From: Halichondria panicea | Taxonomy: Eukaryota > Porifera > Demospongiae > Suberitida > Halichondriidae | Length of the DNA stretch: 64,000 bases | NCBI RefSeq assembly: GCF_963675165.1 | Contig: NC_087381.1 | Coordinates: 1,612,001 to 1,676,000, forward strand | Reading direction: 5' to 3' | Shown here: positions 3 through 49,700 of the stretch, piece by piece | Layout: every line of letters starts with the position of its first letter | Numbering within the stretch: position 1 is the first letter of the stretch | Translations under genes and position numbers: made by a program | The notes under the pieces: model-generated | Databases searched by the model: none | The model's input: the letters and a program-made list of their open reading frames with translations, nothing else | What the model was told of the DNA's origin: nothing

Positions 3-3000
3 CACAGCGATGCTTTAAAGATCAGGTCCCTGTTGACCATGACACTGGCGGACTTCTTCTTTTATCCGAGGTGAGACTCAGAGAGGATACAGCACATGTA
101 CTGTATAGAGTGTTGTAGTATGTGCATTTGTTGTATAGCGTGTGTGTCTATAATTATGTTTGCATTTCCTCGCATTCCTCGCTTATAAAAATAACAGTAT
201 ACGGGGGGAAAAGCTCTGTATTTTCAAATTCAGCTTGTAAACTTTCTCACACCCTCCAAATACACACCTCGTACACATCCACACACACACACACACACAC
301 CCACCCACACACACCCACACACCCACACACCACACACCACACACACACACCACACTCTCACAGAGCCGAGGTGAGCTCAGAGGATGACCTCAGTCCTGAC
401 ACAGACTCTGACTCTATGGAAGTGGATATCACTCCAACCAGGGAAATGGGTGAAGCTTCTACGCCTGTCCGAGTAGCTAGTAACCAAGACAACAAGAGCG
501 GAGACAAGTCAATCGGGAGTGCACTAGTACCTGAAGTTCAACCACACTTTGCCGTGAGTATAAAGTAACATTTAAATACGCGTGTACACCTCTTGCAGTA
601 GCGGGTTGTTAGAGAGGTTTTTGAAGGCCAGGACAACGTGTGATTGGGTAAAGGTCTCATTTGTAGTGAGAGAATTTTCGGCGCAGCTAAACACGATAGC
701 TCAGAGGAGGTCCATTTTCGAGAGCCAGAGTCTGTTGACAATAGAGATCGGACTACAAATTAGTGCTCTGTTTCTGTATAAAGCATATAAAGCATGAAAT
801 AAAATGTGAACTGAAAATGCTACTCTAATTGAGCTAAGGTATGTACAGTAGTATACAGAGGAGCCTATGGCGTGGTCCCACTGTGTACTGATACATTGTG
901 GTGCAAAGGAGTGTAACAGCCACAGTATAAGTTGTTGTTGTGAAGAGTGTTGAACTACTGATTTGTATCTCTCGTAGAGCATGGACTATCATGTGATGTT
1001 CACCAACAGTGTCCTCTACACATTCTTCCGACTATTCCAGGTGGGTGTGGTCATCACTGTGTGTGTGTGTACCATACTGTACATGTACATGGTATCATTA
1101 TGGTCATAGTACATGTATCTCAAAAACAAAGATCTCTGCATGGTTGTGTTCTCCTGACCCGTGCAGTTTCTGTGTGAGCGCTTGAACAAAGTGTACCAGT
1201 CTTCTCTGTCGAGCATAGCGGAGCTAGAGTCCCACTCCACTGTCACAAGTCTGGAGGAGCTGAACGGTGAGGCAGACGGGGAGGGGGTGGGGTCAGTTAG
1301 CATGACGACTAGTGACGTATGCGTTGTGTGTTTTAGATCGGTCTGATTACAAGTATAGTTGCATGAGGTCTCATAAATGTTCAGTTATTATACTTAAAGG
1401 CAGTATGCAATAGAGTTACTTGTACATTGTACCTAATGACCTTAATAGAATCGGCTATTTTCATACCGATACAATGATTTCATTCTCGTTCATTTGTCAT
1501 AGCGAAATTATGTAGAGCTGTCCCTCCCTCCCTTGATTTTAGCATACATACATGTACAAACAGGAACATTAATTTTTAATCTGTACTTTAATTTGGATTT
1601 TGGAGTTTTTCATGTGCATGTGATATAGACTGTATTTGCTATTACCCTTCAGGGGGTGATGGGGTGGAGTCAGCAGAGGTGAAGGAGAGCTCTGTGGCGC
1701 TCCAACTGGGTCTCCGGAAACCACCTGACATCAAAGTGGAAGAGTACTACCCCACTTTCCTCAATATGGCCAAGAATTTCATGGAAGGTAGGGTACAACT
1801 GAGTGACCACATCTCAAGGGGTTTATAGAAAGCCTTTTACTGTGTTTCTCAAAGCAAGAGCAGATTACAGAAGGTACCTTGTGATTTCCTAGTTTAGGTT
1901 GGGTATACATGTAGAAGGCCTTTTAAGTAAGAGCAGATTACAGAAGGTACCTTGTGATTCCCTAGTTTGGGGTTGGGTTTACTGGTGTGTGGCTCCCTTG
2001 TTTGGTGTACTTTATTTGTTTGTTATGAGGGGGGGTTCTGTAATCTGCTCCTTGCTCAGAGTGAGGCCTTTTTTAGTATAATACTTATTGTAGGTAGGTA
2101 CTGTTTACTGTCCATTACTTGAGTTAGGGTATCTACATGTACGCAATTACAAAAGAATTCAGTAGACTTTTGTCTACGATATCCGAATAGATATACTAAA
2201 CCATGCAAGCTTTTATGTAGCAATCGATCTCATTGAACTGACCACATCAAAGGTTATCCCCATACACATACTTGTACATGTACAGGAAATATCGACACAA
2301 CGACGTATGAAGACACGTGTCGTGAGATGTTCGGAGTCAATGCCTACGTCGTGTTCACCATCGACCGACTCGTACAGAACATTGTCAGACAGGTGAGGTG
2401 TCTAGCAATGGGAGGGGCTAATTACATGTCGTTAGCGTGCTTCTACGAGCTTTGGTGAGCAATAATATTATGATATGCACCCATATGCAGTAGATGTGGA
2501 AGTACTTGTGTGTGTAGTCGTGGCCGAGTGGTTAAGGCGATAGACTAGAAATCTATTGGGCTCTGCCCGCGCAGGTTCAAATCCTGCCGACTACGAGTTT
2601 TTTTTATAGTTATTTGCAAAATTAAAATAACCCACTCCCCTTCACACGCGCACACACACACACACACACACATCTACAGCTTCACGCTATTATCTCGGAA
2701 GAGAGTTGCTACAAGATGATGGAATTGTACACAAGCTTTGTTGAGAACATACCACCCTCTTTTGTACGTGGAGAGTCTCGATTGGGGGCGGAGTCAGCCT
2801 ACCAGAGGAAGGCAGAGTCTCTGATGGGAGATGACAATTGCTGCCGAGTTGTCTTTGTAAGTACTTGTACCTGTACATGTATAATTGCAAATTAAGTGAT
2901 TGGCTTTCAATTTCACTCTATCTATATTCAGAAGAAAGACTACACTTTGACCTTTGAACTTTTGGATACCGATGAAACACCAGACACCGTTCGCCAGGAT

Positions 3001-46700: not shown

Positions 46701-49700
46701 CCAAGTTTAACTGGTACTTGAACCTATACACAAGCACACACACACGCACGCACACACACACACACGCACGCACACACACACACACACACGCACGCACACA
46801 CACACACACACACACACACACACACACACACACACACAGGTGCCCCTTACTCCTATCCATACTCTGAGATCTTCCTACTAGACGGTGCTGGACCAGCTGG
46901 TAACTTGTTCATCCACGGAGGGTGGGACCCCCAACCAGTGTGTGCTATTGGGTTCGGTCAAGCTGAAGCCGAGGTGGCTTGTAGGCAGATGGGGTACGAG
47001 GGAGCAGTGGCCGTGAGACACCAACCATAGTAAGTGTAGTTATAGTTTCATTGCACAAAAACAGTCCAATGACAAACAGTGTCTTAAAATTTAAATAATG
47101 CAATTTCGTACTCATTTGTACCGTATAACCGTATACCGGGACATTTTCTAGGCGCTTAGTTTTCAATTTTTCATGGGTTAGCAATCCTCTACAAAAAATA
47201 ATCTAACGGTGGACGTAACATGCATACATGTCAGTTTTGAAGCAATTCCACAAAAGCTAAAATTCCGTGCTGTACAATATTATGCGTGTACTGTAGCTGC
47301 ATGCATTGACTAACTAACTATGGTAACACATGCTCTGTAATTCCATGTATGAGTTTTTCATCCCAACTGCTCATGACTTCTCTCACCTCATGCTCCCTTG
47401 CAGCTATGGAGATGATCTGTTTACAATGGACGGTCAGTGTCTTGGTTCTGAGACTCACCTACTCAATTGTGTACAGCCTCCAGCAAACAGCAGTCAGTGC
47501 AACTCACTGGTCAGACTTCAGTGTGGTGAGTCCCCTAACTCTCTCTCTCGTATAGTATCAAATTGTACAGCATTAGCCATGATCTTTACCTCTACTATAC
47601 TTGTACTACTACTGCTGTTTTACTATTGCTGCGATAGATCAGTTTGCAAGTTACATAATTATACTGTTGGTAGGACCCAGTTATTGCAGTATCCTTGGGT
47701 TTGTTTTAGTTAAAAGCAAGCAAATTTCTTGATCAGCTGGGAAACATTTTTTTTACTGCTCTCCTTGTATACATAATATTCTAAACCCCCCCCCCCCCCC
47801 CACACACACACACACACACAGCCACAAGCCCGTCCTACTCCCCCTCCCTACGACTGGTGGGTGGTCCCATTTCCTCGCTAACCAATCAACCACTCTCTGG
47901 CAGACTTGAGGTCAACTTTGACGGTGTCTGGGGGGCTATAGGAAGTACTGGCTTTGACCATCTTTCGGCTCATGTGATCTGCACTCAACTAGGCTATGCC
48001 TCTGCAAGACAAGTATTCAACAGTTCTCGGTATGTGATTTTGGGGAGCATTCAGTCGTGGCCCACGCTAGGTATATTTTTTGGTAGTTCCCTGAAAATCA
48101 GTAATGACATGATTTGATGTACGTTATTCTTTATTCCAGGTTTGGTACTGGAATGGGACCCACCATCCTGGACCAAGTGCAATGCCGAGGCTCCGAATCG
48201 TCTCTGTTCCAATGTCCCTATTCCGTGGAGGTGGGAGAAACTCACGTCAGCAACAGTGTGGGCATTGAGTGCAGTAAGTCTCAGTGTGTACATCTACATG
48301 TACAAACTGCTGCATTTGAATTTGGCTTGAAAGAAAATAATAAAACACATTTTAGCTCTCAACAACTTCCTCTCTCTCTTACCAGAATACATTTTATGTA
48401 CCCTATACAAATACTATATATACTACATTGTAGCTCTATGTATTGAATGGAGACATTATTTAGTACAAGAATCGTTTTTTTCCCTATCACGCTAATCGTT
48501 CACCCCCTCCCCTCTTATAGGTGAACAGTTGGAGTTTGTTGATGGATCCCTAAGACTACTAAACAATAATAACACTGACGACACTTCGTCTGGTTCATTG
48601 GAGGTGTACACATATGGAGTGTGGATGAGTGTGTGTGGTGTGGGCTTCACCATGGAGACGGCTACCGTGGCTTGCTCACAGCTCGGCTTCATAGACGCTC
48701 TCAGTTACTGCACCGACTCATGGTGAGATAAATAACCAATTCAATGTCATTATTTGAAATAAACTGTTGCAATCTGCACGCAATTTAATTTCTTATCAAG
48801 TGGTATTTTAGATCTTGCTCAATATTTTACAGCCATTTTAAATAATTAGCTATAGAGAACGGCAACTCAAACCTGAGAAATGAAAGTTCTGATTCTTTCT
48901 TGCCCATCAGTGTGTTTCTAGTTTTGAATGCAGCTGCAATGTTCTTACTACATTTCCTGCTCTTCCCTCTGCAGTTTTGGTGAAGGTGGTGAATACGTGC
49001 ACCCTGTTGAGTACCAGTGTGGGGGGTCCGAGGGTTCGTTACAGGAGTGTGGGGGGTCAGTCCGTGTCAATACCCCCTGCAATGACTCAAGCAACATCGG
49101 CCTTGTCTGCAGTAAGTGCTACTTGCTGGAATCATGCATGGTGGCTGTACATTTGCCTTTAAATTGGGAAACATTTTTGTAGTTTTGAGGGCTATATAGA
49201 TTTCCTCTTAGCAATCTAACTAATGAATATTCATCACCTCTATAGGGAGACCTCCAACTATGAAAACCCCCATCATGACCACACCCACTGCTGCTATGGT
49301 AACACCGGACGCTATTCCTACCCCTACGGTTTCTACTATCATCCCTGGCCTGAGTGATACGTATTTCTATATTATCGTGGGTGTTGGAGGTTCGGCAGTG
49401 TGTGTGTTACTGATCGGATTTCTGGTGTGTTGCATCTGCTGTGTTGCTAGGAGACGTCAAAAGAGGCGTGGCACTTGGCGGTCATCCGTACACAATAATG
49501 GTAAGTCCTATACGATTACAAGCTAGGTTATAATATTATTCGTCAAGTGTATTATCTTAGTGTGCCCTAAATTGAGCGTGTAGTGCAATTTCATAACTTT
49601 CAGTGTCAAGCCACACCCACGCACACACACACACACACACACACACCCACACACACACAGGAACTCATCAAAATGGCCCTAGGCTAAGCAACAGTAATTC

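Follow-up and report, generated by a model that had tools for sequence, protein, structure and literature searches.

CA-repeat arrays at putative 3' splice sites in the genome of the sponge Halichondria panicea

We analyzed a stretch of 64,000 nucleotides (nt) from the genome of the sponge Halichondria panicea (bases 1,612,001-1,676,000 of contig 5, hereafter the window; the whole genome is 131 Mb in 39 contigs), in which CA-repeat arrays lie directly ahead of exons. In the gene models of the window, and at exons sampled elsewhere in the genome, CA arrays end at the 3' splice sites of unrelated genes on both strands, as had been proposed in an original prediction made from the letters of the window. 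The pattern is found throughout the genome and involves a minority of introns. The arrays are probably AG-free microsatellite spacers that separate the 3' AG from a branch point and pyrimidine-rich tract further upstream. This reading draws on the position of the arrays at the acceptor end, their sense orientation, the long AG-free zones, the homology-backed exons downstream, the change of array length between paralogs with the AG kept, and the pyrimidine-rich sequence that lies upstream in most cases. The array is probably a tolerated, orientation-selected spacer, not a primary splice signal, and may tune the strength of the acceptor.

Forty-seven introns were modeled by hand in five genes of the window, with both ends set for 45; this count does not extend to the part of the SRCR gene from 35.9 to 43.4 kb, to the final intron of the GCV_T gene, or to stretches with no clear gene. 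The junctions of all modeled introns were inferred from the DNA sequence, using AG, GT, an open frame, and homology. Domain matches in the window genes were to SIN3, SRCR, Calx-beta, and GCV_T; by eye, we also took window genes to encode CCP/sushi and dimethylglycine dehydrogenase. All 47 introns have an AG acceptor, and every donor that was set is GT. We called an intron a CA intron when its last 60 nt contained at least 10 nt of sense CA repeat without interruption. This holds for 13 of the 47, which precede the exons starting at 364, 2680, 3244, 8982, 9566, 20552, 21381, 35659, 43436, 45189, 46840, 47822, and 49661. Exons 4851 and 18163 have CA-rich acceptor regions with a longest run of 9 nt, below this threshold. 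For the 45 introns with both ends set, the last 60 nt account for 21% of the intron length, and CA runs of at least 10 nt elsewhere in the intron are confined to introns whose acceptor end carries one too. Two of the 45 introns contain a TG run of this length, and neither is a CA intron. All six (CA)7CAG sites in the window are modeled acceptors. SIN3 exon 4310 is preceded by a CT array.

The original prediction had named 11 exons and claimed at least ten introns of this type. At all 11 coordinates, the acceptor AG lies in or close to a CA tract; ten have the run of at least 10 nt, and the eleventh is exon 4851. The minus-strand CA introns ahead of 8982, 20552, and 21381, and the CA-rich 18163, are additions to that list. 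Ten of the 11 named exons were scanned against Pfam (exon 49661 was outside the scan), and six gave a match with an E-value of at most 0.01: 2680 to Sin3a_C, 35659, 43436, 46840, and 47822 to SRCR, and 9566 to Calx-beta. The matches of 2680 and 46840 fall under Pfam's own cut-off. Exons 364, 3244, 4851, and 45189 had no match in the Pfam scan; a joined SIN3 query matched Sin3b in the PDB over the portion derived from exon 4851. The other named exons were placed by their open frame and donor. Exons 8982, 20552, 21381, and 18163 have no domain match of their own, and at 8982 the choice of AG was inferred from the neighboring tandem copy of the exon.

A first-order Markov model predicts about one (CA)5 start in the 264 kb around the window, where 75 CA and 31 TG arrays were observed. 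An AG occurs within 6 nt of the 3' end in 33 of 61 CA arrays, a set that takes in paralogous copies and a few copies of dispersed elements, compared to 8 of 61 in a mirror-image test at the 5' end (p = 2.5e-6). For comparison, we used 50 introns between adjacent kinesin exons from many contigs, all shorter than 900 nt. A CA run of at least 10 nt was present near the acceptor in one of these and a TG run in two; since the difference between 13 of 47 and 1 of 50 is significant (Fisher p = 0.0003), the window is rich in CA acceptors, which elsewhere occur in a minority of introns.

That the pattern extends past the window is borne out by (CA)7CAGCTT, which has 79 matches on 17 contigs and none in mirror image. 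The shorter (CA)7CAG has 4314 matches versus 1022 in mirror image, a count swollen by tandem copies and elements, and (CA)7CATB has 1713 versus 2145. However, the mirror excess is not specific, because (TG)7YAG also shows one (1537 versus 448). We therefore dropped the mirror count alone as evidence for splicing and relied on the exons identified at sampled sites. The (CA)7CATB sites were also rejected as clean negatives: of 20 fetched, some had an acceptor-like AG a few bases on, as judged by eye, and one had a weak VWD match.

Two samples of sites were inspected for exons. The first contained 20 (CA)7CAG sites from contig C1, with ten translations scanned against Pfam. Two of the ten matched families that fit the gene, OGDH and the DNA polymerase beta locus. 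The OGDH exon starts directly after the CA array (PDB E = 9.8e-25, with the alignment beginning at residue 1), and the DNA polymerase beta exon (E = 7e-20) begins after the second CA array of its locus. The second sample contained 40 of the 79 (CA)7CAGCTT sites, from 14 contigs, with translations scanned for 30 loci; the 39 sites outside it are 14 of the 15 in a stretch of contig C3, all 7 on C9, 3 close neighbors, and 15 on C15-C17. Pfam matches with E at most 0.05 were obtained at 11 of the 30 loci. Five of these are above Pfam's own cut-off (Vps26, alpha-galactosidase, DUF4291, C1, and IMPase), and six are weaker (DUF7802, RCC1, ephrin-receptor-like, M24, HIP1, and kinase C-terminal). The Vps26 match starts 40 residues past the sampled CAG, and the acceptor is therefore taken to lie further along within this CA-rich stretch. 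Two of the weak loci were confirmed in the PDB as MetAP1 (2.7e-23, from residue 1) and PKA (7.7e-14, from residue 2), and a PDB match of about 1e-5 added a gelsolin/capping protein exon. Overall, 12 of the 40 sites have homology support, 7 carry a dispersed element, and the remaining 21 are unassigned, some of them coding as judged by eye. Going by both samples, we guess that CA acceptors number from several hundred to some two thousand in the genome; this figure is not a count.

The same samples bear on the possibility that the pattern arose secondarily, with array-carrying mobile elements and tandemly duplicated genes having spread a few ancestral arrays. Besides the seven element sites among the 40, the C1 sample comprises seven sites with one of two elements, five that are a single repeated exon-like sequence, two with another repeat, and six single sites. 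The 79 sites are partly bunched, with 15 in the one C3 stretch and the 7 on C9 within 350 bases. Several of the SRCR acceptors may likewise derive from a common ancestor through domain duplication. In addition, (TG)7YAG shows the excess over its mirror image mentioned above, and of 20 such sites sampled, 13 belong to four repeated groups, with a Pfam match in none of ten translations. However, unrelated single exons follow directly after an array, among them those of OGDH, MetAP1, PKA, IMPase, DUF4291, C1, and alpha-galactosidase, and the SIN3, Calx-beta, and GCV_T genes of the window are unrelated to one another. As an account of the whole pattern, spread by elements and duplication is very unlikely.

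The dispersed element carried by seven of the 40 sites starts right after CA arrays (CAGCTTTACCGTATCCC...GGCTACGCCTCGAGGCATAA), and within the 264 kb it is found at about 112292, 147934, -5999, and -13596 in window coordinates. A second repeat (CTTGCGCATGCG...) also follows CA arrays, at loci L080, L081, L086, L090, and L091. At L092, visual inspection suggests a duplication that takes in the start of the DNA polymerase beta exon and the CA-rich acceptor ahead of it. The downstream flank of the window holds a perfect CA array of 538 nt, at 141079 relative to the window, with no adjoining exon visible.

The acceptors of CA introns differ from those of the other introns in the distance that is free of AG. 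The median AG-free zone is 96 nt in the 13 CA introns versus 35.5 nt in 32 others, a difference that is partly built in, because CA contains no AG. Zones of at least 100 nt are present in six of the 13 CA introns (105, 122, 130, 155, 167, and 228 nt) and one of the two CA-rich introns (156 nt), but in none of the 32 others. We scored a Y-rich 10-mer where at least 8 of 10 nt were pyrimidines; in the AG-free zone outside the CA runs, nine of the 13 CA introns have one. The pyrimidine tract is often displaced upstream in CA introns. The length of the array also varies, as had been predicted, here between paralogs. One SRCR-gene exon (49661) is present in four copies in the 264 kb, with tracts of about 38, 40, 104, and 119 nt, up to a three-fold spread; an AG closes every tract, in one copy as TAG. 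In a paralog of SIN3, the CA run is shorter than in the window copy (exon 2680).

With the array as a spacer, the branch point would sit upstream of it, U2AF and U2 would bind upstream at the branch point and pyrimidine tract, and the second step of splicing would use the first downstream AG, namely the AG at the end of the array. A CA run would be free to grow, because neither CA nor AC yields an AG. A TG run may be less tolerated, perhaps through GT donor dinucleotides or through the binding of UG-repeat repressors; alternatively, CA may be preferred over TG because it is bound by an hnRNP L-like protein. Scanning for the first AG and AG exclusion zones with distant branch points are described in PMC1431707. 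The exons treated there resemble those studied here in having a long AG-free zone and the first AG as acceptor; here, however, the zone is built of CA arrays, and the branch points are motif candidates.

Several results weigh against the arrays being spacers. Within the last 40 nt, a Y-rich 10-mer is present in 7 of the 13 CA introns versus 25 of 34 others (the 34 include the two CA-rich introns, 4851 and 18163). At 3244, 9566, 46840, and 49661 there is none upstream of the array anywhere in the AG-free zone outside the CA runs, and the figure of 9 of 13 is flattered, because the stretch searched is longer than the last 40 nt. Candidates for a strong branch-point motif upstream of the arrays were not found consistently in the CA introns of the window. 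Finally, a preference for CA over TG of about 9:1 is not accounted for by the absence of AG alone, because TG arrays also lack it.

This preference was estimated from (TG)7YAGCTT, which has 9 matches genome-wide and 1 in mirror image, roughly one-ninth the number for CA; both counts are raised by tandem copies. All nine sites were fetched. A NEDD4-like exon begins directly after (TG)nCAG at one of them (8e-18, from residue 1), and TG arrays can therefore occupy acceptors. Two others are near-identical copies that look WD40-like by eye, and three near-identical copies have no clear exon. Exclusive use of CA at acceptors is ruled out by the NEDD4-like exon, together with the two WD40-like copies. 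(CT)7YAGCTT has no match in the genome.

The original prediction had treated the arrays themselves as the splice signal. In this explanation, an hnRNP L-like protein would bind the CA arrays, which would replace or modulate the polypyrimidine tract. The roughly 9:1 excess of CA over TG ahead of AGCTT fits it, as do the introns in which the Y-rich 10-mer is missing, 6 of 13 in the last 40 nt and 4 of 13 in the whole AG-free zone. The claim that the polypyrimidine tract is absent at several sites thus stands in part; of the 34 other introns, 9 also lack a Y-rich 10-mer in the last 40 nt. According to PMC6339879, regulatory elements between the polypyrimidine tract and the 3' AG are known as REPA, and the first example, the CA-rich CaRRE of mammals, works via hnRNP L/LL; an association of HNRNP-L with AC repeats is cited in PMC13174678. 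However, the mammalian element is described in PMC6339879 as inhibiting its site, nine of the 13 CA introns retain an upstream Y-rich 10-mer, and a TG array fills the same place at the NEDD4-like exon. The plain reading of the arrays is an AG-free spacer, and an active signal of this type appears unlikely. The wider claim is quite unlikely: that in this lineage sense CA arrays are recognized by the spliceosome as contributing positively to the 3' splice site, that TG arrays are favored at donors, and that many hundreds of introns have repeat-coded, length-variable sites differing in strength between alleles.

The preference is turned round at donors, where TG is favored. GTAAGT followed by 8 nt and (TG)6 has 48 matches genome-wide (11 in mirror image), falling to 24 by hand count once 24 that read GTAAGTGGTGT are removed, and the (CA)6 version has 10 (15 in mirror image). 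This polarity is the one expected if a GU repeat close to the donor paired with CA near the 3' site, so that the intron ends were bridged and U2AF2 was dispensable, as in fish. Lin et al. in 2016 reportedly described zebrafish introns that carry dinucleotide repeats at their two opposite ends, with AC at the 3' end. The AC repeats at the 3' end and the TG favored at donors are the points of likeness to the sponge. That study is listed as a reference in PMC7404189, and the zebrafish precedent is stated in PMC9198270. The donor polarity leaves room for bridging in introns outside the window. However, none of the 11 CA introns with a known donor has a TG run of at least 10 nt in its first 100 nt, and bridging is therefore unsupported in the window. 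The energy of the duplex between the 5' and 3' ends is also unremarkable, with a mean z of -0.52 for the 11 CA introns versus -0.72 for 34 others; two CA introns stand out, 21381 (z = -2.1) and 20552 (z = -2.8). We rejected fish-type pairing for the window, since it fails on both the GU partner and the stable pairing of the ends, and as an explanation of the pattern, bridging is highly improbable.

Taken as AG-free spacers, the arrays would appear, from the sequence, to be a variant of a known arrangement, for which REPA is the nearest named class. CaRRE, as described in PMC6339879, and the arrays are alike in being CA-rich (here, 13 of 47 introns have at least 10 nt of uninterrupted CA), in the long AG-free distance, and perhaps in their location, since most arrays may follow a Y-rich tract and precede the AG (9 of 13, with 4 of 13 lacking a Y-rich 10-mer). 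However, the arrays are long, length-variable microsatellites known from sequence alone, and PMC6339879 concerns G tracts, with CaRRE in its introduction. PMC13174678 ties human short tandem repeats located up to 100 bp upstream of exons to splicing and links AC repeats to HNRNP-L. The bias reported there is toward T-rich units, whereas the CA arrays adjoin the AG itself. In a search of open-licence papers, no title on CA arrays at acceptors across a genome was among the matches listed. If borne out in RNA, the arrangement would mean that many genes, housekeeping genes among them, have fast-mutating microsatellites at their acceptors, and that these strongly favor one strand. It would offer natural tests of how far branch point and AG can be separated and of whether repeat length alters splicing between individuals. 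It would also call for caution with gene finders trained on Y-rich acceptors.

Table 1. CA-repeat and CA-rich tracts at modeled acceptors of the window. Exons are named by their start; positions are those of the tract in the window.
Tract	Position	Strand	Remarks
CA-rich tract ending at the acceptor of SIN3 exon 364	280..363	+	AG-free zone 130 nt; exon without Pfam match
22-nt CA run followed by TCTACAG, acceptor of SIN3 exon 2680; CCCACTCCCCTTC upstream	2651..2679	+	exon is Sin3a_C, under the curated cut-off
78-nt imperfect CA array closing in CAG, acceptor of SIN3 exon 3244	3165..3243	+	exon without Pfam match
CA-rich acceptor region, longest run 9 nt, SIN3 exon 4851	4820..4850	+	part of the joined query matching Sin3b (PDB)
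105-nt CA array closing in CAG, acceptor of exon 9566	9567..9672	-	Calx-beta, E = 9.9e-21
Pair of CA arrays ahead of acceptor 8982, following intron of the Calx-beta gene (last 190 nt)	8983..9172	-	AG-free zone 228 nt
CA arrays ahead of exon 21381, GCV_T-domain gene	21382..21446	-	GCV_T and GCV_T_C in other open reading frames of the stretch; exon itself without match
About 170 nt of CA-rich sequence ahead of exon 20552, GCV_T-domain gene	20553..20722	-	hand model
C/A-rich tract ahead of exon 18163, GCV_T-domain gene; longest run within the last 60 nt is 9 nt	18164..18300	-	
CA array closing in CAG, acceptor of SRCR exon 35659	35565..35658	+	SRCR, E = 6.7e-10
67-nt CA array closing in CAG, acceptor of SRCR exon 43436; CCTTCCCTCC upstream	43368..43435	+	SRCR, E = 4.8e-9
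17-nt CA run closing in AG, acceptor of SRCR-gene exon 45189	45171..45188	+	exon alone without Pfam match
104-nt CA array closing in CAG, SRCR exon 46840; no Y-rich 10-mer upstream	46735..46839	+	SRCR, E = 9.7e-5, under the curated cut-off
C homopolymer, then 20-nt CA run closing in CAG, SRCR exon 47822	47786..47821	+	SRCR, E = 1.5e-9; paralog at 121931
CA array closing in CAG, last modeled SRCR-gene exon 49661	49612..49660	+	hand model; four copies in 264 kb

Two tRNA genes were found inside introns. A tRNA-Ser gene (AGA anticodon; window positions 2513-2596, plus strand) lies within a SIN3 intron, 83 nt ahead of the CA acceptor, and the SIN3 paralog near -62.7 kb retains a similar sequence at the position of this gene. 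A tRNA-Lys gene (locus L059, 94-169, minus strand) lies within an intron between kinesin exons.

The 100-kb flank upstream of the window carries about ten single open reading frames of about 650 amino acids, arranged in tandem on the plus strand. A home-made unsupervised gene finder was discarded as unstable, since it fused genes or learned this tandem array; no count given here rests on it. On contig C3, protein kinase matches form a large tandem array between about 0.87 and 2.46 Mb, first on the minus strand and then mostly on the plus strand.

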